Shown one piece after another: positions 25,056 to 45,962 of a stretch of 64,000 bases of DNA. The stretch is from Micromonospora sp. MP36 (GTDB lineage Bacteria; Actinomycetota; Actinomycetes; Mycobacteriales; Micromonosporaceae). The DNA is taken from assembly GCF_008119785.1 (NCBI RefSeq), contig NZ_VSFA01000031.1:1-64000 (forward strand), in the 5' to 3' direction. Position numbers and translations under genes: made by a program. The stretch's first letter is position 1; each line of letters opens with the position of its first letter. The notes under the pieces were generated by a model. It was not told the DNA's origin and made no database searches. It worked only from the letters and a program-made list of their open reading frames with translations.

Positions 25056-25062
25056 AGGCGGC

Positions 25063-30441: not shown

Positions 30442-31656
30442 TCACCTGGCCGACTGTGCCGGGATTCTGACCTCCGGATCGGCGCGGAGCACGTCGACGG
30501 CCAGGGCTCGCACCGCGGCTTCGTCCACGTCGACGCCCAGGCCGGGTCCGGTGGGCACCGCGGCGACCCCGTCGCATACCTCGACGGTGTGCCCTCCCGT
30601 ATAGGTGGACTCGATGAACTGTCGGCCGTTGAGGTCGACCGGCGTGTCGATGCCGAAGGCCGAGAACAGATGCAGCGACGCGGCGAAGCCGAGGTCGGAG
30701 TCGGTGAGGCCGGAGCCCATCAGGCGCACCCCGCTGTCCTCGGCGAGGGCGCACATCCGCCGGGAGAGCGCGAGGCCGCCGCTGCGCTGGACCTTGGCGA
30801 TCGCGACATCGACCGCATCCAGGCGTACGAAGGTGGCGAGGTCGCTGGGGTGCCGCAGGCTCTCGTCGAGCGCGACCGGCACGGGGGAGTGCTCCCGCAG
30901 CCGCCGTAGGCCGGTGATCTGGTTGGCCGGCAGCGGCTGCTCGAAGGCGGTGACGTCGAGTTCGGCGAGCCGGCGGGCCACCTGTAGTGCCTGGTCGACC
31001 TGGTACGCCTGGTTGGCGTCCACCCAGATCGCCGCGCTCGGCGCCGCTCGGCGTACCGCCTCGACGAACGCGATGTCCTGCTCGATCCCGGCCAGCCCGA
31101 TCTTGACCTTGAAAGCGGTGTATCCGAGGGCGTGGCCCTCGGTGACGCTGTCGGCGACCGCCTCGGGGGTCTTGGCGGAAATGATCCAGCCGAGTGGGAT
31201 CCGTTCGGTGCGACGTTGCCCCCAGAGCGCTCCGAGCGGGACGCCGACCGCCCGTCCGATGAGGTCGTGCAGGGCGATGTCGAGGGCCGACTTCGCGATC
31301 GGCGCACCGATCGTGAAGCCGCGGTTGATGACCCGGTCGAACGTGGACGTCATCGCGTCGAGGTTCCACGCCTGGACGCCGAGGACCGCGGGCGCCAGGT
31401 AGCGGTCGATCGTGGTGACGATGCTCTCGGTGGTTTCGTAGGTCCACGACGGTGTCGGAGTGGCTTCACCCCAGCCGACGACGCCGCCCGCGGTCACCTT
31501 CACCAGCACCCGCCGGCTGGGCTGCCCGACCGTCGCGACGGTCCCCCCGGCGATCTCGAACGAACGGATCGTCGGGAGTTCGACCACGAAGGTCTCCACC
31601 CGCTCCACGACGAGACCGTCCAGTGCCCCGGCGTGCTCGGGCCCATGAGTCGGCAT
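30442..31656 (-). CDS. Mandelate racemase / muconate lactonizing enzyme family (enolase superfamily)
   Basis: A 404-residue enolase-superfamily protein. The capping domain covers residues about 1-125. The barrel carries the KxK motif FKVKIG, metal ligands in WVDANQAY, EQPLPANQ and LDESLRHPSD, and the opposite base region AIAKVQRSGG. This layout fits the MLE/dipeptide-epimerase subgroup (paired lysines) more than sugar-acid dehydratases of the D-galactonate type. The neighbouring glycan locus nevertheless suggests action on a sugar-derived acid. The ATG at 31656 has GGAAGAGGTGG upstream; an ATG at 31677 lies at the expected transcription start. It is divergent from the GntR/LacI regulator and shares its operator-containing gap. 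Confidence 0.82.
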   Translation of the reverse strand: MPTHGPEHAGALDGLVVERVETFVVELPTIRSFEIAGGTVATVGQPSRRVLVKVTAGGVVGWGEATPTPSWTYETTESIVTTIDRYLAPAVLGVQAWNLDAMTSTFDRVINRGFTIGAPIAKSALDIALHDLIGRAVGVPLGALWGQRRTERIPLGWIISAKTPEAVADSVTEGHALGYTAFKVKIGLAGIEQDIAFVEAVRRAAPSAAIWVDANQAYQVDQALQVARRLAELDVTAFEQPLPANQITGLRRLREHSPVPVALDESLRHPSDLATFVRLDAVDVAIAKVQRSGGLALSRRMCALAEDSGVRLMGSGLTDSDLGFAASLHLFSAFGIDTPVDLNGRQFIESTYTGGHTVEVCDGVAAVPTGPGLGVDVDEAAVRALAVDVLRADPEVRIPAQSAR

Positions 31657-31683
31657 GCCGTACCCCACCTCTTCCATGGCATC

Positions 31684-31711
31684 TATTTAGGAATGAATTC
31701 ATTCCCTGCAA
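31684..31711 (-). promoter_or_regulatory. Promoter of the enolase-superfamily gene with operator in the spacer
   Basis: On the minus strand TTGCAG (31711-31706) and TAAATA (31689-31684) are 16 bases apart, and those 16 bases are exactly the perfect palindrome GGAATGAATTCATTCC. Transcription would start near 31677. A repressor bound there would block RNA polymerase directly. The -10 is a weak match. Confidence 0.5.
31690..31705. promoter_or_regulatory. Perfect 16-bp palindrome, candidate GntR/LacI-hybrid operator
   Basis: GGAATGAATTCATTCC, a perfect inverted repeat in the gap between the enolase-superfamily gene and the regulator gene. A related half-site, GGATTCATTCCCT, recurs inside the start of the regulator gene (31840-31852). 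Confidence 0.62.
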
Positions 31712-31819
31712 TCGCTGGTATCCGGAAGCTTACCGCCGGAACGAGCCGCGTAAAGCAGGGAAAATTCTTGTCCGGAGAGGATTGACGCAGGGACATCTAC
31801 TGCTCAAGAATCGTCAGCC

Positions 31820-32935
31820 ATGACCGGCAACGATGGTTTGGATTCATTCCCTCAAGGGACGAAATTCCGAGCCCTGGCAGCCCACCTCCGGCAGCAGATC
31901 GCCGAAGGTCGGTGGTCGGTCGACGCGCGCCTGCCCACCGAGCAGGAGTTCGCGCAGACCCACGAGGTAGGGATCAACACGGTCCGCCGCGCGATCAACC
32001 TGCTGGTGGACGAGGGGTTGGTCCGCCGTCGCCAGGGCTCCGGCACCTACGTGGTGGCGATACCGGCGCAGGCCGGGCGCAGCGCCCGCTTCGTCGGCGT
32101 GCTCGTACCGTCCACCTCGTACTTCTACCCGCGCGTGATCGAGGGGATCGAGCGGGTGATGACCGCTGCCGGCGTCCGGATCGTCCTCTCCAGCTCCGAG
32201 TACGACCCGGACCTGGAGGCGCAGCAGATCAACCAACTGCTCGCCGCGGACGTCGACGGCCTGCTGCTCGTGCCCAACCTGCACCTGATCGAGAACCCGC
32301 AACGGTACGTCGACCGGCTGCACCGGCTGCCGGTCCCCTACGTGCTGGTCGAACGGCGACCCCCGGAGCCGGCACCCGACGACGCCACACCGTACGTGTG
32401 CACCAACCACCTCGGCGGGGGCTACGCGGCGGTACGGCACTTCGTCGAGTTGGGGCACCAGCGGATCGGGCACCTCGGCCGGATCCGGACCGCGACCGCC
32501 GACATGGTGGCCGGGGGCTTCGACCGCGCGGTCAGGGACCTCAACCTGCCGCAGATCCCGGCCGCGGTCGTGCGGCGCGAGGAGTGGTCCCCTGACGAAC
32601 TCGCGGCCTACGCACAGATCTGCCAGGACAACGAGATCACCGCGGTGTTCTGCCTCGGCGACCGGGACGCCGCGGGACTACTGCCACACGCGCGCCGGCT
32701 CGGACTGACCGTGCCCGACCGGCTGGCGGTGATCGCCTACGACGACGAGGTCGCGGACCTCGGCGAGGTGCCACTCACCGCCATCTCCCCGCCGAAGACC
32801 GAGGTGGGCAAGCTCGCCGCCGAGGTCCTGCTGCGACGCATCGAGCAGGGCGTCTCGGCGCCCGTCCACCAGATCCAACTGCAACCACGCCTGGCGATCC
32901 GGGCCTCGTGCGGCGCCGCCGCGCGCGACCGGTAG
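31820..32935 (+). CDS. GntR-type regulator with LacI-like sugar-sensing domain
   Basis: A 371-residue hybrid regulator. Residues about 10-80 are a GntR winged helix (LAAHLRQQIAEGRWSVDARL, GINTVRRAINLLVDEGLVRRRQGSGTYV). Residues about 90-370 are a periplasmic-binding-protein-like sensor as in LacI/AraR (VGVLVPSTSYFYPRVIEG, VDGLLLVPNLH, HLGGGYAAVRHFVELGHQRIGHLG, VIAYDDEVADLGEVPLTAI). AraR of Bacillus has the same architecture and responds to a sugar. It heads the glycan locus and probably represses it until a sugar is bound. The candidate operator lies in the upstream gap, and a half-site inside its own first codons suggests autoregulation. Confidence 0.92.
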   Translation: MTGNDGLDSFPQGTKFRALAAHLRQQIAEGRWSVDARLPTEQEFAQTHEVGINTVRRAINLLVDEGLVRRRQGSGTYVVAIPAQAGRSARFVGVLVPSTSYFYPRVIEGIERVMTAAGVRIVLSSSEYDPDLEAQQINQLLAADVDGLLLVPNLHLIENPQRYVDRLHRLPVPYVLVERRPPEPAPDDATPYVCTNHLGGGYAAVRHFVELGHQRIGHLGRIRTATADMVAGGFDRAVRDLNLPQIPAAVVRREEWSPDELAAYAQICQDNEITAVFCLGDRDAAGLLPHARRLGLTVPDRLAVIAYDDEVADLGEVPLTAISPPKTEVGKLAAEVLLRRIEQGVSAPVHQIQLQPRLAIRASCGAAARDR

Positions 32936-33017: not shown

Positions 33018-34337
33018 ATGAGGATGCAACGCTTCTCGCCGGGCCGGCGTCTCGTCGCCCTGGCAGGTGTCGCGGCGCTCGCGGCGACGATGTTCGGTTG
33101 TGGCGCGGGCTCCGCGGAGAGCGACGGCCGGGTGACCATCAGGCTGGGCTACTACGCCGAGGCGGGCGGCCCCGCCGACAAGACGATGCGCTCGCTCGCC
33201 GACGAGTTCATGAAAGCGAACTCCGGCATCAAGCTGGAGCTGGAGTCGGCGCCGTACACGGACTTCTTCAAGCGGCTGCGCACCCAGCTCGCGGGCGGTC
33301 GGGGGCCCGACGTGTGGCTCTCCGACGGCGTGCTGGTGCAGGAGTACGCCGGCCGCAACAGCCTGCGCGACCTCAGCGACTTCGTGAAGACGATCAACAC
33401 CGACGACTACTACGGCGTGGACCTCAACCGCGACTCCGACGGCCACGTCTACGGCTTCCCCCAGGGCGCGCAGACCCCGGTGCTCTTCTACAACAAGAAG
33501 ATGTTCGCGGACGCGGGTGTCGCGGAGCCGACCGGCGACTGGACGTACGACGATCTCACCGCCGCCGCGAAGAAGCTGACCCGGGACACCAACGGTGACG
33601 GCAAGCCCGACGTGTGGGGGATGCGCGTCTACTCGCCCGGCTTCACCGAGAGCTGGTGGCCGATGATCAAGGCCTTCGGCGGCGACATCGTCGCCGACGG
33701 GGGGCACAAGGTCGTCATCGACAGCCCGCAGAGCCGCGCGGGGCTGGACTGGATGCTGAACGCGATGTACACCGAGAAGGCCGGCCCGGACGTGGTCACG
33801 ACCAAGGCGCTGGGCAGCCCGCACACGATGTTCGCCAGCAACCGCGTGGCCATGCAGTTCGGCATCTACGCCCGTACCATCCCGGCGAACGCGGCGAAGA
33901 TCGACTTGGGTGTGGCGCCGATGCCGAAGGGTCCGGCGGGTCGGGGCCACGTGGCGATCGCGAACTCCTGGGTGGTCAACAAGGCCGCGAACCAGCGGAA
34001 GGCCGAGGCCGCCTGGAAGTGGATCACGTACTTCGCCTCCGAGAAGCCGCAGACCAACTGGGCCGGGATCGGCGAGGCGATCCCGATCAACAAGAAGGTG
34101 GCCGCGTCCGACGTGTTCCTGAAGCCGGGTACCCCGCCGGCCAACCGGCAGGCGTTCCTCGACGCTCTCGCCGAGGCCGACGACCTCGGGCTCAACCCGG
34201 TGTGGACCGAGTACACCACGGCCGTGGCGAACCAGATCGACCGAGCGCTGGCCAAGGAGAAGCCCGTCGGTGACGCGCTGACCGACGCCCAACGGGATGC
34301 CCAGCAGATCATCGACCGGTTCTACGCGAACAAATGA
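33018..34337 (+). CDS. Sugar ABC transporter substrate-binding lipoprotein
   Basis: A 439-residue SBP of the sugar family 1 type (MalE/UgpB-like). The signal peptide ends in the lipobox FGCG (Cys near residue 28). The mature protein begins VTIRLGYYAEAGGPADKTMRSLADEF and contains AGGRGPDVWLSDG and VYGFPQGAQTPVLFYNKKMF, both typical of oligosaccharide binders, and a C-terminal EAAWKWITYFAS helix. AAAGGAGAT precedes the ATG. The next genes encode the two permeases. No ATPase gene is in the locus, so a shared MsiK-like ATPase elsewhere probably drives it, as is usual in actinobacteria. Confidence 0.93.
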   Translation: MRMQRFSPGRRLVALAGVAALAATMFGCGAGSAESDGRVTIRLGYYAEAGGPADKTMRSLADEFMKANSGIKLELESAPYTDFFKRLRTQLAGGRGPDVWLSDGVLVQEYAGRNSLRDLSDFVKTINTDDYYGVDLNRDSDGHVYGFPQGAQTPVLFYNKKMFADAGVAEPTGDWTYDDLTAAAKKLTRDTNGDGKPDVWGMRVYSPGFTESWWPMIKAFGGDIVADGGHKVVIDSPQSRAGLDWMLNAMYTEKAGPDVVTTKALGSPHTMFASNRVAMQFGIYARTIPANAAKIDLGVAPMPKGPAGRGHVAIANSWVVNKAANQRKAEAAWKWITYFASEKPQTNWAGIGEAIPINKKVAASDVFLKPGTPPANRQAFLDALAEADDLGLNPVWTEYTTAVANQIDRALAKEKPVGDALTDAQRDAQQIIDRFYANK

Positions 34338-34374
34338 GTCAGCCCCGCCAGGCCGAGGGAGGAGGTGGCGCGCT

Positions 34375-35343
34375 GTGACGACCATCGAGGATCGAGTGGA
34401 ACAGGGGCGTCGCCCCTCCCTCGGTGACGGAAGGAGAGACGGGGGCGAGCGGCCGGGCTTCGGTCAGCGGGCTTGGGCGACCGTGTTCGCCTTCCCGTAC
34501 CTGGCACACCTGGTGGTGCTGACCGCGTGGCCCGTACTGGCGCTGGCCTACTTCAGCCTCACCGACTACGACACGCTCTCCTCCCCGAGATGGGTGGGGC
34601 TGGACAACTTCCGCCGCCTGTTCGGCGACGAGGCGTTCTGGCGATCACTGCTCAACACCGCCTACTTCGCGGTGCTGTTCGTGCCCACCCAGACGATCCT
34701 CGCGCTGCTGCTCGCGGTCGCGCTGAATCAGCGCCTGCGCTGGATTTCGTGGCTCCGCAGCGCGTACTTCGTGCCGGTCGTCTCGTCCTGGGTCGTCGTG
34801 GGGTACGTCGCCGACGCGGTCTTCAACCCGCAGTTCGGGATGGCCAACACCGTCCTGGGGTGGCTCGGCCTGCCCCCGGCGACCTGGCTGCAGAGCCCGG
34901 TGCTCGTCATCCCCACGCTCGCCCTCGTCGCGGTGTGGAAGGGCGTCGGCTACATGATGGTGCTCTTCCTCGCCGGACTGCAGAACATCCCGGAGGAGCT
35001 GTACGAGGCCGCCAAGATCGACGGCGCGTCGGCCTGGCAGCGGTTCCGCCGGGTCACCCTGCCCGGCATTTCCGGAACGACGTTCCTCGTCCTGGTCCTC
35101 TCGACGATCACCACCCTGCAGGCCTTCGAGCAGGTCTACGTGATGACCGGACCGATGCGGGGCCAGCCCGCCGGTCAGCCGAACGGGGCGAGCGAGATGA
35201 CGGTGCTCTTCATGTACCAGCAGGGTTTCGAGTTCTTCAACATGGGCTACGCGTCCGCGGTGGCGTGGGTGCTGTTCGCGCTGATCTTCATCCTGACGAT
35301 GGTCCAGCTCCGGCTGCAGAAGAAGTGGGTGCACTATGCCTGA
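34375..35343 (+). CDS. Sugar ABC transporter permease (MalF-like)
   Basis: A 322-residue permease with six helices. After a polar N-terminus it has FAFPYLAHLVVLTAWPVLALAYFSLTDYDT, and the ATPase-coupling loop EELYEAAKIDGASAWQRFRRVTLPGI (EAA motif). The GTG at 34375, preceded by GAGGGAGGAGG, gives a sensible length; the open frame starts earlier within the previous gene. The stop overlaps the start of the next permease gene by 8 bases. Confidence 0.93.
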   Translation: MTTIEDRVEQGRRPSLGDGRRDGGERPGFGQRAWATVFAFPYLAHLVVLTAWPVLALAYFSLTDYDTLSSPRWVGLDNFRRLFGDEAFWRSLLNTAYFAVLFVPTQTILALLLAVALNQRLRWISWLRSAYFVPVVSSWVVVGYVADAVFNPQFGMANTVLGWLGLPPATWLQSPVLVIPTLALVAVWKGVGYMMVLFLAGLQNIPEELYEAAKIDGASAWQRFRRVTLPGISGTTFLVLVLSTITTLQAFEQVYVMTGPMRGQPAGQPNGASEMTVLFMYQQGFEFFNMGYASAVAWVLFALIFILTMVQLRLQKKWVHYA

Positions 35344-36196
35344 CACCGGTCAGCGAGGCCGGGCCCGGCAGCGCCGCAACCGGCCGGGCCGTTGGCTCGC
35401 CTACCTGTTCCTCGGCCTCGGCGCGGCGGTGATGGTCGTCCCGTTCGTCGCCTCCGTCGCGAACTCGTTGAAGAACTTCGCGCAGTACGTCGCGGTGCCG
35501 CCGATCTGGGTCCCCGATCCGCCAGCCTGGTCCAACTACAGCCAGGTGTGGGAACGTGCGCCGTTCGGCCTGTACGCCTGGAACAGCTTTCTCATCGCGA
35601 CCCTCGCCGTGGTCGGCAACGTGGTCACCAGCGCGATGGTGGGTCACGCGCTGGCCCGGATGAAACTGCCGGGCAAGGAGGTGCTGCTCGCCGCGGCGCT
35701 CGGCACCCTGATGCTGCCCACCGTTGTGACGATCATCCCCAACTTCATCCTGTACAAGCACCTCGGTTGGCTCGACACCATGCTGCCGCTGGTGGTGCCG
35801 TACTGGCTGGCGACGCCGTTCGGGATCTTCCTGATGCGCCAGACGTTCCTCGCGATCCCGCGCGACTTCGAGGAGGCGGCGGCGCTCGACGGGGCCAACC
35901 CGTGGCAGGTGTTCTGGCGGGTCCACATGCCACTCGCCAAGCCGGCGCTCGCGACCCTCGGCGTCTTCACGTTCATGGCGTCCTGGGGTGCCGTGCTCGA
36001 GCCCACGATCTACCTCACCTCGCCGGAGAAGTACACCCTGCCCATCGGGGTGATGAGCCTGCAGGGCCAGTTCATGGGCAACGACCAGCTCGTCACCGCC
36101 GCCGCGCTGATGTCGCTCGTGCCCATGCTGCTGCTGTTCCTGCTCGCCCAGCGCTACTTCGTCCGCGGCGCGATGGCCAGCGGCCTCAAGGGCTGA
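35336..36196 (+). CDS. Sugar ABC transporter permease (MalG-like)
   Basis: A 286-residue second permease, six helices, with WLAYLFLGLGAAVMVVPFVA at the N-terminus and the coupling motif DFEEAAALDGANPWQVFWRV. It pairs with the upstream permease to form the sugar channel. Translationally coupled (8-base overlap). Confidence 0.93.
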   Translation: MPDTGQRGRARQRRNRPGRWLAYLFLGLGAAVMVVPFVASVANSLKNFAQYVAVPPIWVPDPPAWSNYSQVWERAPFGLYAWNSFLIATLAVVGNVVTSAMVGHALARMKLPGKEVLLAAALGTLMLPTVVTIIPNFILYKHLGWLDTMLPLVVPYWLATPFGIFLMRQTFLAIPRDFEEAAALDGANPWQVFWRVHMPLAKPALATLGVFTFMASWGAVLEPTIYLTSPEKYTLPIGVMSLQGQFMGNDQLVTAAALMSLVPMLLLFLLAQRYFVRGAMASGLKG

Positions 36197-36310: not shown

Positions 36311-37339
36311 GTGACCGAAACATGGGGGAACCGACCATTCCGCGTCGGGGTGGTCGGCGCGGGCAGCGTCGCCGCGCTGCACCTCGACGCGGCCGCCGGC
36401 CTGCCCGAGGTCGAGGTCGCCGCGGTCTGCGACGTGCGGCTGCCCGCCGCCGAGCAACTCGCGGCCGGGTTCGGGGCCCGCGCGTACGCCGACCACACCG
36501 CGATGTTCGCCGCCGGCGGCCTCGACGGGGTGCTGGTCACCGCGCCGCACTCGCTGCACGCACCGATCACCGTGGACGCCGCCGCAGCCGGGCTGCACGT
36601 CCTGGTGGAAAAGCCGATGGCCACCACCCTCGAGGACGGCCAGCGGATGATCGACGCCTGCGCCACCCACGGGGTACGGCTCGCCGTGGGGCACGTGCTG
36701 CACTTCCTGCCGACCGTACGCGAGGCGTGGCGGATCCTGCGGTCGGGAAGCCTCGGCCGGCCAGTGGTGATCACCGAGCGGCGTACCGCGCGGTACGAAC
36801 GCGGATCCCGGCCGGACTGGTTCTTCGACCCGGTGCTCGCCGGCGGCGGCATCCTGATGAACGTCGGCACCCACAGCATCGACAAGGCCCAGTGGCTCGG
36901 CGACGCACCCGCCACCAGCGTGCACGGGTACGTCTGGAACCGGCCGGGCGCCGAGGTCGAAACCGAGTCGGTCGGCCTGCTGGAGCTGGCCAACGGGGTA
37001 CGGGTCGTGCTCTCGGTCACCGGCACCGGCCTGCCGTTCCGGGACGAGACCGAGGTGGTGTGCGAGCACGGCGCGCTGCGGCTGTCCCGGAGCGACGGCC
37101 TGTGGACGTACCGGGGGGACGACGCGGTGCAGGTGGTCACGCCCGAGCAGGACGACATCGTAGTGGCGTTCCGGGAGCAGCTGGCGGACTTCGTCGCGAG
37201 CTGCCGCGACGGCCGTACGCCGGCGGTCGACGCGGCGTACGGGCAGTCGGTCGTGGCCACCGCGCTCGCGCTGTACGAGTCGGCCCAACGCGTCGACCCC
37301 GTACGGATCCCGCGGTTCACCGTGGAGGCGGCGGCATGA
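36311..37339 (+). CDS. Gfo/Idh/MocA family oxidoreductase
   Basis: A 342-residue NAD(P)-dependent sugar oxidoreductase. N-terminal Rossmann fold with VGVVGAGSVAALHLDAAAGLP, the family signature HVLVEKPMATT (Lys-Pro), and a C-terminal GFO/IDH/MocA domain with GGGILMNVGTHSIDKAQWL holding the catalytic His position. Members oxidise or reduce sugars, inositols and amino sugars. GTG start with GAAAGGAACG upstream. The stop is embedded in the start of the next gene (ATGA), so the two proteins probably act in one pathway. Confidence 0.92.
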   Translation: MTETWGNRPFRVGVVGAGSVAALHLDAAAGLPEVEVAAVCDVRLPAAEQLAAGFGARAYADHTAMFAAGGLDGVLVTAPHSLHAPITVDAAAAGLHVLVEKPMATTLEDGQRMIDACATHGVRLAVGHVLHFLPTVREAWRILRSGSLGRPVVITERRTARYERGSRPDWFFDPVLAGGGILMNVGTHSIDKAQWLGDAPATSVHGYVWNRPGAEVETESVGLLELANGVRVVLSVTGTGLPFRDETEVVCEHGALRLSRSDGLWTYRGDDAVQVVTPEQDDIVVAFREQLADFVASCRDGRTPAVDAAYGQSVVATALALYESAQRVDPVRIPRFTVEAAA

Positions 37340-38154
37340 GCGGCGTCGACACCGTACCGGCATGGGCGGCGGGCCGGCTCGCGTTCAGCACCCTCGGCTG
37401 TGCCGCAGAGCCGGTGGAATCGGTGCTGGAACTGGCCCGGCGTACCGGCTGCCACGGGGTGGAGCTTCGCTGCGCCGAGGGTGAGCCGGTCGCGCCCGAC
37501 ACCCCGGCCGCGACGCTGCGGGAGATCGGGAAGCGGTTCGCGGACGCGGGCGTCGAGCCGATCTGCGTCGCCTCCTACGTGCGCATCGCGGCACCGGACG
37601 GAGATCCGGTCACCGACCTGCTCCACCACGTCGAGATCGCCGAGCAACTCGGCGCCCGCTACGTGCGGGTCTTCGGCGGCCGGGACGGGCAGGCCGACCC
37701 GCATCCGGCGGCGGTGCGGCGGCTCGGCGAAGTGGCCCGGAGGATCGAGGGTGGGCCGGTGACGGTCCTGCTGGAGACCCACGACGTGTTCTGCTCGGCG
37801 CGCGCCGTCGCGGCGGTGCTGGCCGAGGTCGGTTCGCCCGCGGTGGCCGCCCTGTGGGACGCGGTGAACCCGTGGCGGGTGGGGGAGAGCCCCCGAGAGG
37901 CGGCCGACGCGCTGGCGCCGTGGCTGCGGCACGTACAGCTCAAGGACGTCCGCGCGACCGACGACCTGGCCCCGGTGCTGCCGGGGCACGGCACGGTCCC
38001 GCTTGGCCAGATCCTCACCGAGCTCGACCGCCTCGACTACCGGGCCTGGCTGTCCCTGGAGTGGGAACGGGCCTGGTTCCCGGAGGCGCCGCCGCTGGAC
38101 GAGGCGCTCGGCGCGTTCCGGGCGGTGCTCGCGGCGCACCAGGCGGCGCAATGA
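37336..38154 (+). CDS. Sugar phosphate isomerase/epimerase (xylose-isomerase-like TIM barrel)
   Basis: A 272-residue AP-endonuclease-family-2 fold protein. It starts LAFSTLGCAAEPVESVLELA and carries GCHGVELRCAEG, ARYVRVFGGRDG, VTVLLETHD (metal-binding Glu), ALWDAVNPWR (Asp), HVQLKDVR and LSLEWER (last metal Glu). These are the metal-site positions of inosose isomerase, hydroxypyruvate isomerase and similar enzymes. Its tight coupling with the Gfo/Idh/MocA gene upstream resembles keto-sugar handling pairs. It overlaps both neighbours by four bases. Confidence 0.88.
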   Translation: MSGVDTVPAWAAGRLAFSTLGCAAEPVESVLELARRTGCHGVELRCAEGEPVAPDTPAATLREIGKRFADAGVEPICVASYVRIAAPDGDPVTDLLHHVEIAEQLGARYVRVFGGRDGQADPHPAAVRRLGEVARRIEGGPVTVLLETHDVFCSARAVAAVLAEVGSPAVAALWDAVNPWRVGESPREAADALAPWLRHVQLKDVRATDDLAPVLPGHGTVPLGQILTELDRLDYRAWLSLEWERAWFPEAPPLDEALGAFRAVLAAHQAAQ

Positions 38155-39689
38155 CCTCGTTGATCCCGTATCCCGCGGCGATCCGCCAGCACCCCGGTAC
38201 GCTGCGCGTCGCCGGACCGGTGCCGGTCGCCGCCGGGCCGGAGGCCGAGGGGGTCGCCGACTGGCTCGCGGAGCTGCCCGGGTTCACCCGCGCGGCGGTG
38301 TCCGACGCCCCGGTACGCCTGGCCGTCGACGACCGCCTGACCCCGGAGGGCTACCGGCTCACCATCGACGAGCGTGGGGTGGAGATCACCGGAGGGGCAC
38401 CTGCCGGGGTGTTCTACGGCGCCCAGACGCTGCGCCAGCTGATGCCGGACGGCGGCCGGAGCGTCAGCCTCCCGTACCTCGAGGTCACCGACGCCCCCCG
38501 GTTCGGCTGGCGCGGCGCGATGCTCGACGTGGCGCGGCACTTCATGCCCAAGGAGTTCGTGCTGCGCTTCATCGACATGCTCGCGCTGCACAAGCTCAAC
38601 GTGCTGCACCTGCACCTCACCGACGACCAGGGCTGGCGGCTGGAGATCCCGCGCTACCCGCGGCTGACCGAGATCGGGGCGTGGCGCGCCGCGACCCTGG
38701 TCGGACACGCCCGGCAGACTCCCCGCCGCTACGACGGGGTACGGCACGGCGGCTACTACACGCAGCAGGACATCCGGGAAATCGTGGCGTACGCCGCGAC
38801 GCGGTTCGTCACCGTCGTCCCGGAGATCGAGGGCCCCGGCCACTCGCAGGCGGCGATAGCGGCGTACCCGCAGCTCGGCAACACCCGCCGCCAGCTCGAC
38901 GTCTGGACCGTCTGGGGGATCAGCGAGCACGTGCTCGACATCTCCGAGACGACGCTCGGGTTCTACCGCGACGTGCTCGACGACGTGATGGCCCTGTTCC
39001 CCGGGAACTACGTGCACCTCGGCGGCGACGAGTGCCCCACCGGGCAGTGGCGGGCCAACCCGGCCGCCATGGCGCGCCTGGCCGAGCTGGGACTGCCCGA
39101 CGAGCGGGCCCTGCTCGGCTGGTACGTGGGGCAGCTCGCCAGCCTCGTCACCGCCCGTGGCCGCCGCCCGGTCTTCTGGTACGACACCGACACCGCGCTG
39201 CGGGTGCCGAATGCGATCGCGATGCCGTGGCGGGGCGACGGCGCGGCAACGGCGGCACACCAGGACGGCCACGACGTGGTGCTCGCCTCCCACGAGCACC
39301 TCTACCTCGACTACTACCAGAGCCAGGACCAGGACACCGAACCGCTCGCGATCGGCGGGCACACGCCGCTGGAGCGGGTGTACGAGTTCGACGCCGACCG
39401 ACCCGCCGGGGCGCTCGGCGCCCAGTGCCAACTGTGGACCGAGTACATGCCGCGGCCGCAGGACGTGGAGCGCATGGCGTTTCCCCGGCTCTGTGCGTTC
39501 AGCGAGACCGTGTGGTCGACCGCGCCCCGGCACTCCTTCGCCAGCTTCCGCGACCGGCTCACGGCGCACCTGCCCCGCCTCGCCGCGGCGGGCGTGAGGT
39601 ACCGGCCGCTCGACGCCATCCCATCGCCCCGCACCGAGCCACAGCCATCCCTCAAGGAGGCACCGACCGATGCCCACTTACGCGGGTGA
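38151..39689 (+). CDS. Beta-N-acetylhexosaminidase, glycoside hydrolase family 20
   Basis: A 512-residue GH20 enzyme. Residues about 1-110 are the GH20b domain (SLIPYPAAIRQHPGTLRV, GVEITGGAPAGVFYGAQTLRQLM). The barrel starts at FGWRGAMLDVARHFM with LHKLNVLHLHLTDDQGWRLEI, contains PEIEGPGHSQAAIAAYP, and the catalytic pair in VHLGGDECPTGQW near residues 288-296 (Asp polarises the N-acetyl group, Glu is the acid). The C-terminus has GAQCQLWTEYM. No signal peptide is seen, so it probably cleaves imported N-acetylhexosaminides inside the cell. It links the locus to a hexosamine-containing glycan. ATGA overlap with the gene before, 20-base overlap with the next. Confidence 0.95.
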   Translation: MTSLIPYPAAIRQHPGTLRVAGPVPVAAGPEAEGVADWLAELPGFTRAAVSDAPVRLAVDDRLTPEGYRLTIDERGVEITGGAPAGVFYGAQTLRQLMPDGGRSVSLPYLEVTDAPRFGWRGAMLDVARHFMPKEFVLRFIDMLALHKLNVLHLHLTDDQGWRLEIPRYPRLTEIGAWRAATLVGHARQTPRRYDGVRHGGYYTQQDIREIVAYAATRFVTVVPEIEGPGHSQAAIAAYPQLGNTRRQLDVWTVWGISEHVLDISETTLGFYRDVLDDVMALFPGNYVHLGGDECPTGQWRANPAAMARLAELGLPDERALLGWYVGQLASLVTARGRRPVFWYDTDTALRVPNAIAMPWRGDGAATAAHQDGHDVVLASHEHLYLDYYQSQDQDTEPLAIGGHTPLERVYEFDADRPAGALGAQCQLWTEYMPRPQDVERMAFPRLCAFSETVWSTAPRHSFASFRDRLTAHLPRLAAAGVRYRPLDAIPSPRTEPQPSLKEAPTDAHLRG

Positions 39690-40713
39690 CGCCCCGCCGC
39701 GCAGCCTGGCCGCCCTCCGGGAGGCCCTCGCGACGCCCAGCCAGGAGGTGGTGGAGAGCCTGGCGCGGGTGGACGGCGACCTGATGCTCCTCGGCGTCGC
39801 CGGAAAGCTGGGACCCGAGCTGGCCCTGATGGCGCGGCGCGCCCTGGACCGGGCAGGCCGGCCGGCCCGGGTCATCGGGGTGGCCCGCAATCCCGGGCCC
39901 GAGCTGGTCGAGCGGTTGCGCGGCGGGGGCGTGGAGCTGCTGCGCGCCGACCTGCTCGACGACGCGGCGCTCGCCGGCCTGCCCGACGCGGCGAACATCG
40001 TCTACCTGGCCGGCCGGAAGTTCGGCACCGACGGCGCCGAGCACCAGACCTGGGCGCTCAACACCTACCTTCCCGGGCGGGTCGCCGAGCGGTTCCGTGA
40101 CTCGCGGATCGTCGCCTTCTCCACCGGCAACGTCTATCCCCTGATGCCGGTGGTGAGCGGCGGCGCCGACGAGGCGACGCCACCGGGCCCCGTCGGCGAG
40201 TACGCACAGTCGTGTCTGGGCCGGGAGCGGGTGTTCGAGCACTTCTCACACCGGTATGGCACCCGGATGGCGATCGTACGGCTGAACTACGCGGTCGAAC
40301 TCCGGTACGGAGTGCTGTTGGAGATCGCGCGTGCCGTGTATCGGGGCGAGCCCGTCGACCTGCGGATGGGCAACGTCAACGTGATCTGGCAGGGCGACGT
40401 CAACGCCGCCACTCTCCGGCTCTTCGAGCACTGCACGGCGCCGCCGTTGGTGCTCAACCTGGCCGGCCCCGAGACCGCGTCCGTGCGCTGGATCGCGCAG
40501 CGTTTCGGCGAGCTGTTCGGGGTGCCCCCGGCATTCACCGGGGCAGCGGAGCCCACCGCGTTGCTCTCCAACGCCGCGCGGGCGAACGAGCTGTTCGGCT
40601 ACCCCAGCGTTCCGCTGCGCACGCTGATCGAGTGGACCGCCGAATGGGTGCTCGGCGGCGGCGAAACCCACGGCAAGGACACCCACTTTCAGGAGCGGGA
40701 GGGGCGTTTCTAA
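39670..40713 (+). CDS. NAD-dependent epimerase/dehydratase family protein
   Basis: A 347-residue extended short-chain dehydrogenase. The usual GxxGxxG is modified (LMLLGVAGKLGPELALMARRA). Other signatures are NIVYLAGRKFG, FSTGNVYPLM and a YAQSCLGRERVFEHF active-site-like stretch in which the Lys of YxxxK is not conserved. LNLAGPETASVRWIAQRFGELFG is the C-terminal substrate part. The altered catalytic motif (YAQSC in place of YxxxK) makes epimerase activity uncertain. AAGGAGG, lying inside the GH20 gene, precedes the ATG. Confidence 0.8.
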   Translation: MPTYAGDAPPRSLAALREALATPSQEVVESLARVDGDLMLLGVAGKLGPELALMARRALDRAGRPARVIGVARNPGPELVERLRGGGVELLRADLLDDAALAGLPDAANIVYLAGRKFGTDGAEHQTWALNTYLPGRVAERFRDSRIVAFSTGNVYPLMPVVSGGADEATPPGPVGEYAQSCLGRERVFEHFSHRYGTRMAIVRLNYAVELRYGVLLEIARAVYRGEPVDLRMGNVNVIWQGDVNAATLRLFEHCTAPPLVLNLAGPETASVRWIAQRFGELFGVPPAFTGAAEPTALLSNAARANELFGYPSVPLRTLIEWTAEWVLGGGETHGKDTHFQEREGRF

Positions 40714-41771
40714 TGTCGGCAGCACTACCGGTGGACGTCGGCTCGGCGCTGCGCGAGGGCGTCGTCATCCCGGCCCACCCGCTCGCGCTCGACGCCACCG
40801 GGCGGCTCGACGAGCGCCGACAGCGCGCGCTGAGCCGGTACTACCTGGAGGCCGGGGCGGGCGGCCTGGCGGTCGGGGTGCACACCACCCAGTTCGCGAT
40901 CCGGGAGGCCGGGCTACTCGAACCGGTGCTACGGATCGCCGCGGACACCGTGCGGGAGGCGCCACGCGACCGGCCGGTGGTGCTGGTCGCCGGGGTCTCC
41001 GGCACCACCGACCAGGCGGTCGCCGAGGCGAAGCTCGCCGCCGACCACGGCTACCACCTCGCCATGGTGATCCTTCGCGGATTGGCGGAGCTGACGGACG
41101 ACGAACTCATCGCACACATCGCGGCAGTCGGCGAAGTGCTCCCGGTCTTCGGCTTCTACCTCCAGCCCGCGGTCGGCGGCCGGACGCTCGGATACGACTT
41201 CTGGGCTCGCCTCGCCGAACTGCCCTGCCTGGCGGCGATCAAGATCGCGCCGTTCGACCGGTACCGCACCCTCGACGTGGTCCGGGCGGTGTGCGAGTCC
41301 TCACGAGCGGCGGAGATCGCGCTCTACACCGGCAACGACGACAACATCATCGTCGACCTGCTCACCACGTACCGCTTCCCGGTGAATGGCGGCCATGTCA
41401 GCAAGCGGATCGTGGGCGGGCTGCTCGGCCAGTACGCCGTGTGGACCCACCGCGCAGTGGAGCTGTTCGAACGGGCCCGCGAGGCGGCACGGACCGGACA
41501 GCTCGACGAGGAACTGCTCACGACGGCCGCGACGTTGACCGACGCCAACGCCGCCGTCTTCGACGTCGCCCACGGCTTCGCCGGCTGCGTCGCCGGCATC
41601 CATGAGGTGCTGCGGCGCCAGGGCCTGCTGGACAACGTCCGGCTGCTCGACGAGCAGGAGCGGCTCTCCCCGGGGCAGGCGGCGGAACTTGACCGTGTGA
41701 TCGGGGCGTACCCCGACCTGCAGGACGACGCGTTCGTCGCCGCGCACCTGGACCGCTGGCTCGACACATAG
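40713..41771 (+). CDS. DapA / N-acetylneuraminate lyase family aldolase
   Basis: A 352-residue class I aldolase-like TIM barrel. Schiff-base Lys in LAAIKIAPFDRY (near residue 176) and the Tyr-bearing segment FGFYLQPAVGG (near 147) match the DapA/NAL/KDPG-aldolase superfamily. GGAGGLAVGVHTTQF is a variant of the usual G(T/A)TGE(F/A) pyruvate-binding loop, with VHTTQ in place of TGE. The substrate may not be a simple pyruvate aldol. The longer frame to 40212 overlaps the epimerase gene and is not used. The ATG shares one base with the preceding stop (TAATG). Confidence 0.88.
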   Translation: MSAALPVDVGSALREGVVIPAHPLALDATGRLDERRQRALSRYYLEAGAGGLAVGVHTTQFAIREAGLLEPVLRIAADTVREAPRDRPVVLVAGVSGTTDQAVAEAKLAADHGYHLAMVILRGLAELTDDELIAHIAAVGEVLPVFGFYLQPAVGGRTLGYDFWARLAELPCLAAIKIAPFDRYRTLDVVRAVCESSRAAEIALYTGNDDNIIVDLLTTYRFPVNGGHVSKRIVGGLLGQYAVWTHRAVELFERAREAARTGQLDEELLTTAATLTDANAAVFDVAHGFAGCVAGIHEVLRRQGLLDNVRLLDEQERLSPGQAAELDRVIGAYPDLQDDAFVAAHLDRWLDT

Positions 41772-41782
41772 CAGGAGCAGCC

Positions 41783-43180
41783 ATGATCCTCCCCCACGCA
41801 CTCCTGGCCGCCGTGCTGGCGGTGGCCTCGGTCCCGCCGGCGGTGCCACCGTCCGGGGCGCACCCGGCGCAGACGCGCACCGCCGCGGTGCCGCAGGAGT
41901 TCTTCGACGACTTCAGCTACACCGGTCCCGCGGATCCGGCGTTCGCCGGGTTCGGTTGGACCGCGCGCACCGGCGGTGGCGGGCCCGGGGTGTCGGGTGC
42001 CACGTGGAGCGCCGACAACGTCTCCATGGTGGGCTCCGGCGCCGACCGGGTGATGCGGCTCGCCGCCACCAGCCAGGGCACCGGCCAGACGACCACCCAG
42101 GCGTCGGTTGCCCAGGGGCAGCGGTTCTTCGAGGGCACGTACGCGACCCGGATCCGGTTCACCGACGCGCCGGAGAGCGGGCCGGACGGCGATCAGGTGG
42201 TCCAGACCTTCTACACCATCTCGCAGCTCAACCACCCACTGGATCCGAACTACAGCGAACTCGACTACGAATACGTCCCCAACGGGGGCCTCGGGTCGGC
42301 CGGCACCGCGTTGCAGATGGTGACCTGGGAGACGTATCAGGACAGCCCGTGGGATCCCCGGGCGCTCGAAACCGTCCTGTCCCGGAGCCACGACGGATGG
42401 CACCTGCTCAAACTCGACGTGACCGGCGGCGAGGTGCGGTACTACATCGACGGCGTGCTGGTCGCCAGTCACGGCGGTGACTACGCCCCCGAGGCGTTCA
42501 TGTTCCTGAAGTACGCCGTGTGGTTCGCCAACGGTGGCCTGGTCTCCTCGTCGACGTCCCGCAGGTACGTCCTCGACGTCGACTGGGTCTACCACGCCCG
42601 GGATTCCTCGCTCACCACCACCGAGGTGCAGTCCGCGGTCGCCGGGTTCCGGGCGGGGGGCATCCCGCGCAGGGACACCCTGGTGCCGCGGACCGTGGTC
42701 GCCGCGGATGCACACGTGCGCAGCGGCACGTACGCCGACACGAACTTCGGGCCGGCCACCGCGCTGGAGGTCAAGGACGCCCCCAACGCCGCCGACCCCA
42801 ACGTGGATCGGTTGACCTACCTGAAGGCCGGCCTACCCGGCGTGCCGGCCAGTTCCGCCCGGCTCCATCTGCACGTCAGTTCGGTCGCTCCGGGGGCCGG
42901 TCCGGTCCCGATCGCCGTCCGCGTGCTCACCGACGACAGTTGGTCGGAGTCGACGATCACGTGGAACAACCGGCCCACCGCGGGAGCCACCCTGCTGGGC
43001 ACGCTGCAGGTGACGGCACCCGGGTGGTACGCGATCGACGTCACCAGTGCCGTGAACAGCAATCTCAACGACGGTCAGATCAGCTTCCGACTCGGTGACG
43101 ACTCGGTCGCCGATCGGCTGGTGGTCATCGATTCCCGCGAGTACGGCGCGGGCACCGAGCCGTACCTCCTCATCTCCTGA
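41783..43180 (+). CDS. Secreted GH16-like protein with DNRLRE domain
   Basis: A 465-residue exported protein. The signal peptide covers about residues 1-27 (HALLAAVLAVASVPPAV). Residues about 37-275 look like a concanavalin-like jelly roll: EFFDDFSYTGPADPAFAGFGW, FEGTYATRIRFTDAP, then YSELDYEYVP near residue 158. The latter matches the GH16 catalytic E-x-D-x-E, and VRYYIDGVLVA follows. Residues about 305-465 are a DNRLRE-type beta domain (ADAHVRSGTYADTNFGPATA, WSESTITWNNRP, WYAIDVTSAVN), nearly repeated in the next protein. It probably acts on the extracellular polysaccharide feeding this locus. Linkage specificity is unknown. GCAGGAGCAGCC precedes the ATG. Confidence 0.82.
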   Translation: MILPHALLAAVLAVASVPPAVPPSGAHPAQTRTAAVPQEFFDDFSYTGPADPAFAGFGWTARTGGGGPGVSGATWSADNVSMVGSGADRVMRLAATSQGTGQTTTQASVAQGQRFFEGTYATRIRFTDAPESGPDGDQVVQTFYTISQLNHPLDPNYSELDYEYVPNGGLGSAGTALQMVTWETYQDSPWDPRALETVLSRSHDGWHLLKLDVTGGEVRYYIDGVLVASHGGDYAPEAFMFLKYAVWFANGGLVSSSTSRRYVLDVDWVYHARDSSLTTTEVQSAVAGFRAGGIPRRDTLVPRTVVAADAHVRSGTYADTNFGPATALEVKDAPNAADPNVDRLTYLKAGLPGVPASSARLHLHVSSVAPGAGPVPIAVRVLTDDSWSESTITWNNRPTAGATLLGTLQVTAPGWYAIDVTSAVNSNLNDGQISFRLGDDSVADRLVVIDSREYGAGTEPYLLIS

Positions 43181-43202
43181 CCCCCTGAGAGGAGCACTCC
43201 CC

Positions 43203-45962
43203 GTGTCCCTGATCCGACGCAGGTCGTGGCCATCCGGGCTGGCGCTGTCCGCCGCCGTGCTGGCCGCTCTGCTGCTGCCGCCCGGGCAGCCCGCCTCCGC
43301 CGCCGCGCCCTCGGTCACCATCGACTCGCATACCAGCGGCGACGCGGTGCCGGCCGGGACCGTCCGCCTGTCCGGCAGCTACACCGACGCGTACGAACTG
43401 AGCATCGTGCTCGACGGACGCACCACCCCGCCGGTGCACACCGTCGACCCGGACGGTGACGACACCGGCACCTGGTACTACGACCTGAACACCACCGGCG
43501 TGGACGGTGAGATCGAGGTCGCGGTGCGCGCCAAGCGAACCGACACCCGCTACGGTGTCTGGTCCCCGTTCGTCACGCTGCGGGTGGACAACCCCGCCGC
43601 CAACGTCCCGGTCGTGGCGGTGACCAGCCCCGACGACGGCGGCACGGTGCGGCAGCCGACGCCGATCCGCGTCTCGGTCGCCGCGCGCAACGCCGTACGC
43701 GAGGTGTCGGTGCGCGTCAACGGCGGCGCCTGGCTGCGGGCGCTCGGGGCGAAGGGCACCTACACCTATCTGTGGGATCCCCGCGAACTCGGCGACGCCA
43801 TGGCAAGCATCGAGGCCAGAGCGGTCGACGCGTACGGCAACACCGGGTACAGCCCGACCGTCTACGTCAGGGCCGGTAAGGGCGCTGCCGAGCCGGTACG
43901 GGTCGGCCCGCAGGACCGGGCGATGTGGATCTGGGAGCGGGCGTCGTACGGCCTGATCCTGAACCCCGGATCCCGCCGGCTGCTCGCGACCACGGCGCGC
44001 GACACCGACACCTTCGGCTCGCGGCCGATCACCACCCTCTATGTCGGCGTGGACCGGTACGGCGACCTGGACATGCTCTACGACAAGCGCGCCGAGGTGC
44101 GGGACTTCCTGAGCTGGGCCCACGCGCAGGGCTTCACGGTCTACGCCACGATCGCCGGCGGCACCCAACCACCGTTCCTCGGCGGGCTGGAGCGCTACCA
44201 TCCCCGCGCGGTCCGGGAAATGGAGAAGATCCTCAACTACAACCTCGCCTCCCCGCCGGGGGAACGGTTCGACGGGGTCAACGTGGACATCGAACCCTAC
44301 ATCTATCCCGGGTTCGCGGCCGAGAAGCCGGCCCTGCAACTGCAGTGGCTCGAGGTCCTGGAGCAGATGATCCAGCGCAGGAACGCGGCGGGTTCGTCGC
44401 TGGCATTCGGCCCGGCGATCCCGCGCTGGCTGGACGTCAACACGTGCTGCACCGACATCACCTGGAAGGGCGCCACCAAACCGCTCAGCGAACACATCCA
44501 GGACCTGACCGACTACATCTCGATCATGGACTACCGGGACACCGCGGAGGGTTCGGTCGGCATCATCGCCCAGGCGCAGTCCGAGATCGCGTACGCCGAG
44601 GCGATCGGCAAACCGAACTCGGTGGTGATCGGGGTGGAGACGCTCGACATCGCCTGGAGCGGCGACCCGGAGACCATCACCTTCCGCGAGGAGGGCCGCG
44701 CCGTCGCCGAGCGCGAGCTGCGGAAGGTGTACGACGCCTTCGCCGGCAGCCCGGCATTCGGCGGCATCGCGATGCACCACTACGACTCCATCCGCTGGCT
44801 GCCGTCGGTGTGGGGACCCAACGCCGAGTACACGCCGATGCCGGCCGACACCGGCCCGCCCACTGCGGTCGGCTCGCCGCCGACGGCGAACACCTTCGAC
44901 CACCAGAGCATCGACCTCGCCTACGGCCGGGCCTTCGACGACACCGAGGTGGAGCAGTACAACATCTACCGGTCCACCGACCCGGGCTTCACACCCGGCC
45001 CGGAGAACCTCGCCGGGCAGTCGCGCGGCCTCAGCTTCACCGACTCCGGACTGCTGCCGGACACCACCTACCACTACCGGGTCGCCGCCGTGGACGTACG
45101 CGGCAACGTCGGGCCGGCCTCGCCGCCTGTCTCCGCCACCACCGCCGGCACCGACCTGCGGCCGCTGATCGTCTCCGAGCTGACGGTGACCGCCGCGGGT
45201 GGTCCGGCGACCGTGCGGATCCGGGTGACCGACCTGGTCACCGGGAAGCCGGTCGCGGCAGCGGTACATGGCCGGTTCACCAAGATGGCGGGCCGGTACC
45301 TGACGATGAACGCGAACTCGGACGGCCAGGCGTCCGGCGCGTCGGAGGCGATCGGCTCCCCGGCCGGCGAGGTGGGCTTCCAACCGCTGCGGATCACCGC
45401 CCCGGGCTACTACTGGGCATCCGCTCACGACCGGGCCCGGAACGTGGAGACCAGGTGGCAGACCACGACGCCGGTGACCGCCGACACCTTCGTACGCGCC
45501 GGCGCGTACGCGGACACCACCCACGGATCCGCGCGCGAACTGGAGGTCGCTGACCTCCCCGACGCGCACAGCCCGGACGACGACCGGATGGCCTACCTGA
45601 AGGCCGGACTCGGCGGCTATCCGGGCACCGCGACTGTCTCCGCCCGGCTGTACTTCCACGTCAGCTCGGTGGCGCCGGGCAGTGGCGCCGTACCGGTGAC
45701 GGTGCGGGCACTGGCCGACGACTCATGGTCCGAGGAGGGTGTGAGCTGGAACAGCCGCCCGTCCAGCGCGGGCGCAAGCGTGCTCGGGACCGTCCGGGTG
45801 GAGCGCCCCGGCTGGTATTCGGTCGACGTCACCGGCGCGGTCAACGCCAACCTGGCCGACGGAGCCCTGACGCTGCGACTCTCCGACGACACGACTGCCG
45901 GGCGACCACTCGCCCTGGACAGCCGGGAAAGCGACCAGCAGCCTTACCTGATCATCTACTGA
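43203..45962 (+). CDS. Large secreted protein: Ig-like domains, GH18-like barrel, FN3, DNRLRE domain
   Basis: A 919-residue exported protein. Signal peptide about residues 1-33 (ALSAAVLAALLLPPGQPASA). Two Ig-like domains cover about 34-235. A barrel-like domain spans about 238-545: RAMWIWERASYGLILNPG, ITTLYVGVDRYGDLD, HAQGFTVYATIAGG, then FDGVNVDIEPY near residue 357. That is a GH18-like DxxDxDxE with the second Asp replaced by Asn. LTDYISIMDYRDTA and FGGIAMHHYDSI follow. A fibronectin III domain covers about 560-655, an unassigned beta domain about 656-755, and a DNRLRE domain 757-919 like that of the previous protein. I do not recognise the barrel family. GAGAGGAGC precedes the GTG. Confidence 0.8.
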   Translation: MSLIRRRSWPSGLALSAAVLAALLLPPGQPASAAAPSVTIDSHTSGDAVPAGTVRLSGSYTDAYELSIVLDGRTTPPVHTVDPDGDDTGTWYYDLNTTGVDGEIEVAVRAKRTDTRYGVWSPFVTLRVDNPAANVPVVAVTSPDDGGTVRQPTPIRVSVAARNAVREVSVRVNGGAWLRALGAKGTYTYLWDPRELGDAMASIEARAVDAYGNTGYSPTVYVRAGKGAAEPVRVGPQDRAMWIWERASYGLILNPGSRRLLATTARDTDTFGSRPITTLYVGVDRYGDLDMLYDKRAEVRDFLSWAHAQGFTVYATIAGGTQPPFLGGLERYHPRAVREMEKILNYNLASPPGERFDGVNVDIEPYIYPGFAAEKPALQLQWLEVLEQMIQRRNAAGSSLAFGPAIPRWLDVNTCCTDITWKGATKPLSEHIQDLTDYISIMDYRDTAEGSVGIIAQAQSEIAYAEAIGKPNSVVIGVETLDIAWSGDPETITFREEGRAVAERELRKVYDAFAGSPAFGGIAMHHYDSIRWLPSVWGPNAEYTPMPADTGPPTAVGSPPTANTFDHQSIDLAYGRAFDDTEVEQYNIYRSTDPGFTPGPENLAGQSRGLSFTDSGLLPDTTYHYRVAAVDVRGNVGPASPPVSATTAGTDLRPLIVSELTVTAAGGPATVRIRVTDLVTGKPVAAAVHGRFTKMAGRYLTMNANSDGQASGASEAIGSPAGEVGFQPLRITAPGYYWASAHDRARNVETRWQTTTPVTADTFVRAGAYADTTHGSARELEVADLPDAHSPDDDRMAYLKAGLGGYPGTATVSARLYFHVSSVAPGSGAVPVTVRALADDSWSEEGVSWNSRPSSAGASVLGTVRVERPGWYSVDVTGAVNANLADGALTLRLSDDTTAGRPLALDSRESDQQPYLIIY

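Follow-up and report, generated by a model that had tools for sequence, protein, structure and literature searches.

Gene content and predicted regulation of the locus

A predicted glycan-use locus, in which an ABC sugar importer and a GH20 beta-N-acetylhexosaminidase are combined with a "back end" of oxidoreductase, isomerase-like, SDR-type, DapA-type and enolase-superfamily proteins, occupies positions 30442-45962 of a 64,000-nucleotide stretch of Micromonospora sp. MP36 (RefSeq assembly GCF_008119785.1, contig NZ_VSFA01000031.1, positions 1 to 64,000; hereafter the window, to which all coordinates refer). In this 9.17-Mb genome (339 contigs), open reading frames and domain scans confirmed twelve genes at the locus, eleven on the plus strand and an enolase-superfamily gene divergent on the minus strand. 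Every gene listed in an initial annotation made from the letters alone is present (open frames, Pfam), with corrections of starts and domains; the xylose-isomerase-like and GH20 genes are placed at 37336-38154 and 38151-39689. Starts were chosen for permease 1 (34360) and DapA (40719), and the Pfam scan of the xylose-isomerase-like protein used a longer open frame than the final call. The features are the following:

30442-31677, minus strand: enolase-superfamily (MR_MLE) enzyme (PF13378, PF02746)
31690-31705, no strand: predicted operator, a perfect 16-bp palindrome
31820-32935, plus strand: regulator with GntR DNA-binding and LacI-type ligand domains (Pfam PF00392, PF13377)
33018-34337, plus strand: sugar-binding protein (SBP) of the ABC importer (SBP_bac_1, 139 bits)
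34360-35343, plus strand: ABC permease 1 (BPD_transp_1; start uncertain)
35336-36196, plus strand: ABC permease 2 (BPD_transp_1)
36311-37339, plus strand: Gfo/Idh/MocA oxidoreductase, Gfo (Pfam)
37336-38154, plus strand: xylose-isomerase-like TIM barrel, xi (AP_endonuc_2, Pfam 98 bits)
38151-39689, plus strand: GH20 beta-N-acetylhexosaminidase, probably cytosolic (PF00728, PF02838)
39670-40713, plus strand: SDR-fold protein (NAD epimerase/dehydratase) with YxxxC for YxxxK (PF01370, 34 bits)
40719-41771, plus strand: DHDPS/NAL-family protein, DapA (PF00701, 33 bits)
41783-43180, plus strand: s1, probably secreted, 465 aa, GH16-like domain and C-terminal CBM96 (123 bits)
43203-45962, plus strand: s2, probably secreted, 919 aa, Big_7, unassigned domain, fn3-like domain and C-terminal CBM96 (Pfam)

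The locus looks like one regulated unit, because the successive distances from the regulator gene through s2 are short (82, 22, -8, 114, -4, -4, -20, 5, 11 and 22 bp) and the divergent promoter region holds a palindrome that is unique in the genome; the close coupling proposed in the initial annotation, and its treatment of these genes as a single locus, are borne out by this layout. A chance run of genes was rejected on the grounds of the overlaps, the predicted operator and a gene backbone kept in Paractinoplanes. The palindrome, GGAATGAATTCATTCC, lies in the 142-bp spacer between the divergent genes and occurs in a single copy genome-wide at up to two mismatches (reversed control, 0), so that no wider regulon can be read from it; a second site with three mismatches (31835-31850) falls within the start of the regulator gene. 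In Paractinoplanes ovalisporus (locus L072), a related 14-bp palindrome precedes a regulator 57% identical to that of the window. On its own, the palindrome is weak evidence of an operator, because the window contains nine perfect 16-bp palindromes, and the Paractinoplanes site differs from the predicted operator at three positions, being one of five sites found in that genome at up to three mismatches vs. two for the reversed control. The case for an operator is built on the position of the palindrome, its uniqueness within the genome and the site in Paractinoplanes rather than on any rarity of palindromes.

Importer, GH20 and secreted proteins

As noted in the initial annotation, no ATPase gene accompanies the importer. 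Two ATPases encoded elsewhere in the genome (contigs C304 and C1) score above the threshold of NF008653, a ugpC model, and are candidate MsiK-type partners of the importer. In Streptomyces, chitobiose is taken up by DasABC or NgcEFG together with MsiK, and the dasABC cluster includes an N-acetylglucosaminidase gene, dasD (PMC6167110, in the part available). The locus resembles these systems in having an SBP with two permeases, a candidate ATPase outside the cluster and an N-acetylglucosaminidase-type gene; it differs in its GntR/LacI hybrid regulator, in an SBP that by model is not of NgcE type and in the back end, for which the available part of PMC6167110 has no mention in das/ngc. A plain das/ngc chitin cluster was rejected on the last two of these differences.

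The GH20 assignment is strong (PF00728 at 352.5 bits against a cut-off of 22.3; PF02838 at 74 bits; best PDB match 3rcn, E 2e-132), and by family membership it indicates an N-acetylhexosamine (HexNAc), as originally suggested. The Asp-Glu pair, catalytic in GH20, is present (GGDE at residue 291), and the N-terminus, judged by eye, carries no signal-like stretch.

Both s1 and s2 combine a signal-like N-terminus with a C-terminal CBM96. The GH16-like label of s1 stands for its N-terminal domain by way of relatives and motif rather than of its own Pfam score: no GH16 match was found in the window protein at E up to 10, whereas all five scanned relatives (42-46% identical to the window domain) exceed the GH16 cut-off, and the catalytic ExDxE motif of GH16 appears as ELDYE, its E, D and E being invariant in all eight aligned rows. 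Two of the five scanned relatives carry CBM3 and one CBM5/12. For s2, the signal-like start agrees with the secreted GH18-like protein of the initial annotation, and the GH18 part of that label comes down to a single motif: no GH18 appears among its Pfam matches up to E 10, and DGVNVDIE, in the unassigned domain, departs at one D from the GH18 motif DGxDxDxE. The fn3 match of s2 is below its cut-off, and 10yv ("Putative GH97 from Cellulomonas fimi") was the sole match of s2 in a PDB sequence search, at E 2e-16. Of 298 genomes in the order, 21 carry a domain of s1 type, a count that takes in this genome and one weak match. Matches to s2 are found in eight of the 298; the full domain is matched only in this genome, twice, the matches in other genomes being partial (31-44% identity), and one scan of viral contigs gave no s2 relatives.

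Eight s1 neighbourhoods besides the window were read (L182-L188 and L190). An importer, GH20 and s1 stand together in three of them (L184 and L186 of family f83, and L188 of the window's own family), permeases and an SIS-type gene lie near s1 in two (L182, scanned; L185, by resemblance only), and the remaining three have no importer, GH20, permeases or SIS-type gene. In L182, which belongs to contig C4 of this genome, s2-s1 copies (s2 54% identical to that of the window) are two genes away from an importer with an SBP that reaches 567 bits in the NgcE model TIGR03851 (cut-off 400), accompanied by an SIS-domain protein and a BadF-type kinase with a NagK score below the cut-off. As the context of s1 and s2 relatives includes an NgcE-type SBP, CBM5/12 and CBM3, the glycan side of the locus leans to a polymer of N-acetylglucosamine (GlcNAc) type.

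Enzymes of the back end

The motifs of GH20, Gfo and the enolase-superfamily enzyme, as well as the DapA lysine, are intact. Gfo contains EKP and GTHSIDK and scores best among NCBIfam models against UDP-GlcNAc 3-dehydrogenase (130 bits, below the cut-off of 450), well short of the levoglucosan dehydrogenase equivalog (73 vs. 650); its best PDB match is 3q2k (E 2e-28), which we take to be WlbA. Since UDP-GlcNAc 3-dehydrogenase and 3q2k are its nearest model and structure, oxidation at C3 appears the likeliest Gfo step. The best PDB match of xi is 3dx5 (AsbF, E 3e-7), and its E, D, H and E columns are kept in all five aligned proteins. Known 3-keto routes employ a C3 dehydrogenase, a Gfo-type reductase and "sugar phosphate isomerase/epimerase" proteins, the latter carrying out beta-elimination and hydration, AtOGE being a TIM barrel (PMC7676230 and PMC10628242, in the parts available). 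The locus shares with LgdA-B1-B2-C and AtOGE, as described there, a Gfo/Idh/MocA enzyme beside a protein of the isomerase/epimerase kind, and differs in having one Gfo and one barrel and by the addition of GH20, SDR and DapA.

The enolase-superfamily enzyme (PF13378 at 180 bits, PF02746 at 68 bits) retains KxK, DAN, EQP, DES and KxQ. Its best NCBIfam score is to mucon_cyclo (222 bits vs. a cut-off of 335), with glucarate dehydratase at 54 vs. 829, and none of the NCBIfam models matched by this protein or by DapA reaches its cut-off. Breakdown to a sugar acid followed by aldol cleavage, as suggested in the initial annotation, is possible judging by these families.

The altered YxxxK of the SDR protein, noticed initially in the window, is a family-wide trait: over 42 aligned rows Y178 is always kept, while the lysine four residues on never occurs (C in 36 rows; S, T and V in two each). 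Invariant in the same rows are K46, K117, N131, R185 and E186, and within this YxxxC family a K in a glycine-rich loop and one in GxKFG are invariant. An AlphaFold2 (AF2) model of high confidence (mean pLDDT 95.5) assigns the protein to the SDR fold, with matches to extended SDRs (Foldseek, VIA-align; Z 27-31 among the 50 matches listed). The best solved structure among those listed is TerB (Z 30.6, root-mean-square deviation 2.6, 291 aligned residues); next come further extended SDRs (Z 27-29), in many cases sugar-nucleotide epimerases. The overall fold is shared with TerB (6nd7, 6d2v), MoeE5 and UDP-GlcA/Glc 4-epimerases, whereas the missing catalytic lysine sets the family apart from the usual extended SDRs, and the motif gives no support to a redox role of the standard SDR kind.

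DapA matches the DHDPS/NAL superfamily at the family level, with the lysine in IK.APFDRY (IKIAPF in the window), a tyrosine in GFYLQ and an HTTQF motif (alignment of ten rows including the window). Its best PDB match is an N-acetylneuraminate lyase (E 9e-7), whose S-T-G-E stretch is replaced by H-T-T-Q in the window protein; further DHDPS-family proteins of the order match over part of the length only, at 24-41% identity. The scores against the NanA (22.4 vs. a cut-off of 382) and KdgD (5-dehydro-4-deoxyglucarate dehydratase; 23.2 vs. 373.95) equivalogs, together with the NCBIfam scores of the enolase-superfamily enzyme, led us to reject standard nan, glucarate and KdgD routes.

A nonulosonic (sialic-type) acid route, with the DapA-type protein as lyase and the SDR protein as epimerase, appears highly improbable. 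NanA counts among the nearest models and PDB entries for DapA, and an enzyme of Ruminococcus gnavus acting on 2,7-anhydro-N-acetylneuraminic acid (2,7-anhydro-Neu5Ac) is reportedly of the Gfo/Idh family. This enzyme converts 2,7-anhydro-Neu5Ac to Neu5Ac (PMC7535918, in the part available). Nevertheless, the NanA score is far below the cut-off, the H-T-T-Q replacement separates DapA from the lyase, and there is no match to NanE, NanK or a sialidase among the locus genes.

Distribution of the SDR-DapA pair

A survey of the GTDB species-level set gave at least 595 candidate stretches, at least 583 of which encode a DapA-type protein. Of these, the best 80 (hence not a random sample; some end at contig ends) were analyzed as SDR-DapA loci, with genes called by codon log-odds where GC exceeds 60% and as the longest open reading frame otherwise. 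They come from phyla including Actinomycetota, Bacillota, Bacteroidota, Planctomycetota, Verrucomicrobiota, Acidobacteriota and Pseudomonadota. The SDR gene is directly upstream of DapA in 73 of the 80; in the other seven it is directly downstream (L121), separated by one gene (L140), about 4 kb away on the opposite strand (L099) or without a match (four loci).

Neighbours within six genes of DapA were tallied over 89 loci (the window, 79 of the best 80 and nine others; one of the 90 loci lacked a usable anchor), using profiles built from the same loci, so the counts are approximate: Gfo 50, ABC permease 35, a 400-450-aa family with weak HTH or GGDEF_GdpP-like matches 35, SBP 29, M20 peptidase family 17, serine dehydratase alpha 14 and beta 14, DegT 14, Nramp 12, xi-type barrel 9, Amidohydro_2 8, heparinase II/III 2 (counting only the type found in two Paenibacillus loci described below, not the L072 protein) and GH20 1, the latter being the window itself. 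So varied a set of neighbours suggests that the SDR-DapA reaction is general and not bound to one glycan. Title and abstract searches, with many subscription papers outside their coverage, found no description of the pair; a paper that contains both family names (PMC10434189) is, in the part available, unrelated to it.

Several neighbourhoods deserve mention in their own right. A serine dehydratase beta-type gene directly follows DapA in 14 Paenibacillaceae loci (L073, L075-L078, L081, L087, L088, L093, L097, L101, L102, L115 and L134), and in 12 of them (not L081 or L101) an alpha-type gene comes next (representatives scanned by Pfam), which hints at a hydroxy-amino-acid product. An Nramp-family gene is found just upstream of SDR-DapA in 11 Bacteroidota loci (L074, L089, L090, L092, L096, L122, L135 and L145-L148; one scanned), in a place near which an ABC importer often sits in other phyla. 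In Paenibacillus silvestris, one frame directly upstream of SDR-DapA (L117:7294-8943) joins a xylose-isomerase-like barrel to a NagB-like protein, which may reflect a fusion or a gene-calling effect. Genome G530 has a whole SDR-DapA copy near the end of contig C1 and a second locus near its start (C1:1-19000, L062), where DapA and permease matches are in pieces through either decay or assembly error.

Nearest relatives and separate histories of the two halves

In a midpoint-rooted tree of 76 SDR sequences, the window protein groups with those of Kribbella (L070) and Paractinoplanes (L072) at a support of 100/99; this group has a weaker link (92/64) to a mostly Bacillota/Bacteroidota set and is apart from a 20-row actinobacterial set that holds two further copies from the same genome. 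These copies, on contigs C298 (L027) and C276 (L028), belong to two more SDR-DapA loci with ABC importers of their own (SDR 53-56% and DapA 61-63% identical to the window), the former also having a 2-hydroxyacid dehydrogenase, DegT, a second DHDPS-family gene and an amidohydrolase. Among 350 genomes of the family, 42 including this one have a member at E <= 1e-50, yet only one other (G786, on the same contig as L072) is close, at 71%, the rest being at most 60% identical.

The nearest SDR-DapA relative (75/77%) is in Kribbella, where the gene order is GH3, NagB-like, NagA-like, SDR, DapA. In Paractinoplanes L072 the order is regulator (57%), gfo (48%), an xi remnant (34 aa of the C-terminus, 59% identical), SDR (71%) and DapA (68%); as this is the order of the window, the five genes probably share a history. 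No match to the window importer, GH20, s1 or s2 was found in L072, nor to the importer or GH20 in the 40 kb around it. Two Paenibacillus loci (L078 and L091) show a different partial overlap: next to SDR-DapA they have an SBP 42-43% identical to that of the window, permeases (permease 1, 58% and 56% to L078 and L091; permease 2, 50% to both), a Gfo (36-37%) and a distant TIM barrel (21-23%).

None of the examined loci has the same gene set, and no match came up among the papers listed, in line with the absence of a known match remarked on in the initial annotation. The conservation test that the annotation named as a possible refutation went partly against its reading: the glycan side (importer, GH20, s1, s2) and SDR-DapA are apart in the other examined loci, including those of this genome. 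On these comparisons the two halves of the locus have separate histories, and the locus is, consequently, a new combination of modular origin.

Separate histories raise the possibility that a das-like HexNAc unit and an unrelated small-molecule unit (Gfo, TIM barrel, SDR, DapA and enolase-superfamily enzyme) were joined by chance under one promoter and serve different substrates. The halves do stand apart elsewhere; in Paractinoplanes the regulator, a related operator and the back end exist without importer or GH20, the surrounding 40 kb included; and the C298 and C276 loci of the same genome have less similar importers. However, GH20 sits within the back end, overlapping xi by 4 bp and SDR by 20 bp, and window-like importers accompany Gfo, TIM barrel, SDR and DapA in both Paenibacillus genomes. 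On balance, we regard two functionally unrelated units as somewhat unlikely.

The Paenibacillus loci also bear on the nature of the glycan, for which galactosaminogalactan and glycosaminoglycans had been named initially as candidates. Enolase-superfamily and DapA-family enzymes occur in uronate oxidation, and a back end that handles a uronate or unsaturated uronate would fit a glycosaminoglycan-like or other uronate-HexNAc chain. Beside the window-like importers of L078 and L091 lies a gene for a heparinase II/III protein whose start is not signal-like (L078 scanned by Pfam), the sole PDB matches of the L091 protein being four heparinase III chains, and the L072 backbone is adjoined by a protein of 1293 aa that matches Hepar_II_III_C (Pfam scan). 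Because a heparinase II/III gene adjoins both Paenibacillus importers, a uronate-containing chain may still be considered. Against it, the locus genes include no match to a lyase, sulfatase, GH88 or KduI/KduD-type protein, DapA and the enolase-superfamily enzyme score far below the KdgD and glucarate dehydratase cut-offs, respectively, and the s1/s2 copies of L182 accompany an NgcE-type SBP. We consider this chain type unlikely.

A further catabolic-looking cluster, at 15210-25761 of the window, comprises a ROK kinase, an MlrC/M81 metallopeptidase and a ROK regulator, followed by SBP_bac_5, a pair of likely permeases, a fused double ABC ATPase that carries oligo_HPY, and CutC.

Proposed pathway and its implications

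Overall, we propose, with about an even chance of being right, one self-regulated catabolic locus for a beta-linked HexNAc-containing oligosaccharide, assembled from two modules. The probable substrate is an oligosaccharide that bears beta-HexNAc and perhaps also a uronate. A polymer would be cut outside the cell by the GH16-like and GH18-like CBM96 proteins, and the fragments would be imported by the SBP and the two permeases, energized by a shared MsiK-type ATPase from elsewhere in the genome. The palindrome suggests that the regulator represses both transcripts at one operator until an imported sugar binds. In the cytosol, GH20, with its catalytic pair in place, would remove the non-reducing HexNAc, which may then pass to a NagA encoded elsewhere in the genome (273 bits vs. 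a cut-off of 226). Either on the imported sugar or on the unit that is left, Gfo would oxidize a ring hydroxyl, most likely at C3. The resulting 3-keto compound may be isomerized or eliminated by the TIM-barrel enzyme, in the manner of known oxidation-elimination routes. The genetically coupled SDR and DapA proteins would complete the path, the YxxxC SDR preparing a keto compound that the Schiff-base DapA-type enzyme cleaves or dehydrates, while the enolase-superfamily enzyme might conceivably handle a side acid or lactone.

A number of observations weigh against this reading. On the glycan side, the NgcE model TIGR03851 is absent from the NCBIfam matches of the window SBP; further GH20 matches on four other contigs mean that the window GH20 need not be the main one of this genome; and the AF2 model of the s2 domain is poor (mean pLDDT 38.9), without a confident fold. 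As to the oxidation-elimination steps, the levoglucosan route, in the account available, has two barrel enzymes and two dehydrogenases, compared with a single TIM barrel and a single Gfo here, and in xi a Q replaces the second H of HxH. A redox role of the SDR protein is unproven given that its usual lysine is absent. Finally, no relatives of the window GH20, s1 or s2 (E 1e-10) occur in any of the 80 SDR-DapA loci, so that the pair is not tied to this glycan; NagA-like and NagB-like genes are neighbours of DapA in only seven and four of the 89 tallied loci, respectively, and both such proteins of the Kribbella locus are under the curated cut-offs.

With regard to the pair itself, we put forward a more tentative idea, which has somewhat less than an even chance: the SDR protein and the HTTQ-motif DapA may together perform a single undescribed two-enzyme step that is conserved across phyla and plugged into varied sugar, amino-sugar and peptide uptake loci, serving here, joined to C3 oxidation by Gfo and the TIM barrel, a non-canonical route for the sugar left after GH20. 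The candidate operator permits a direct induction test of the locus. Hydrolases are the usual guide to glycan-use loci, whereas the widely conserved part of this one is its back end, and a single biochemical result could annotate SDR-DapA in Actinomycetota, Bacillota, Bacteroidota, Planctomycetota and other phyla.

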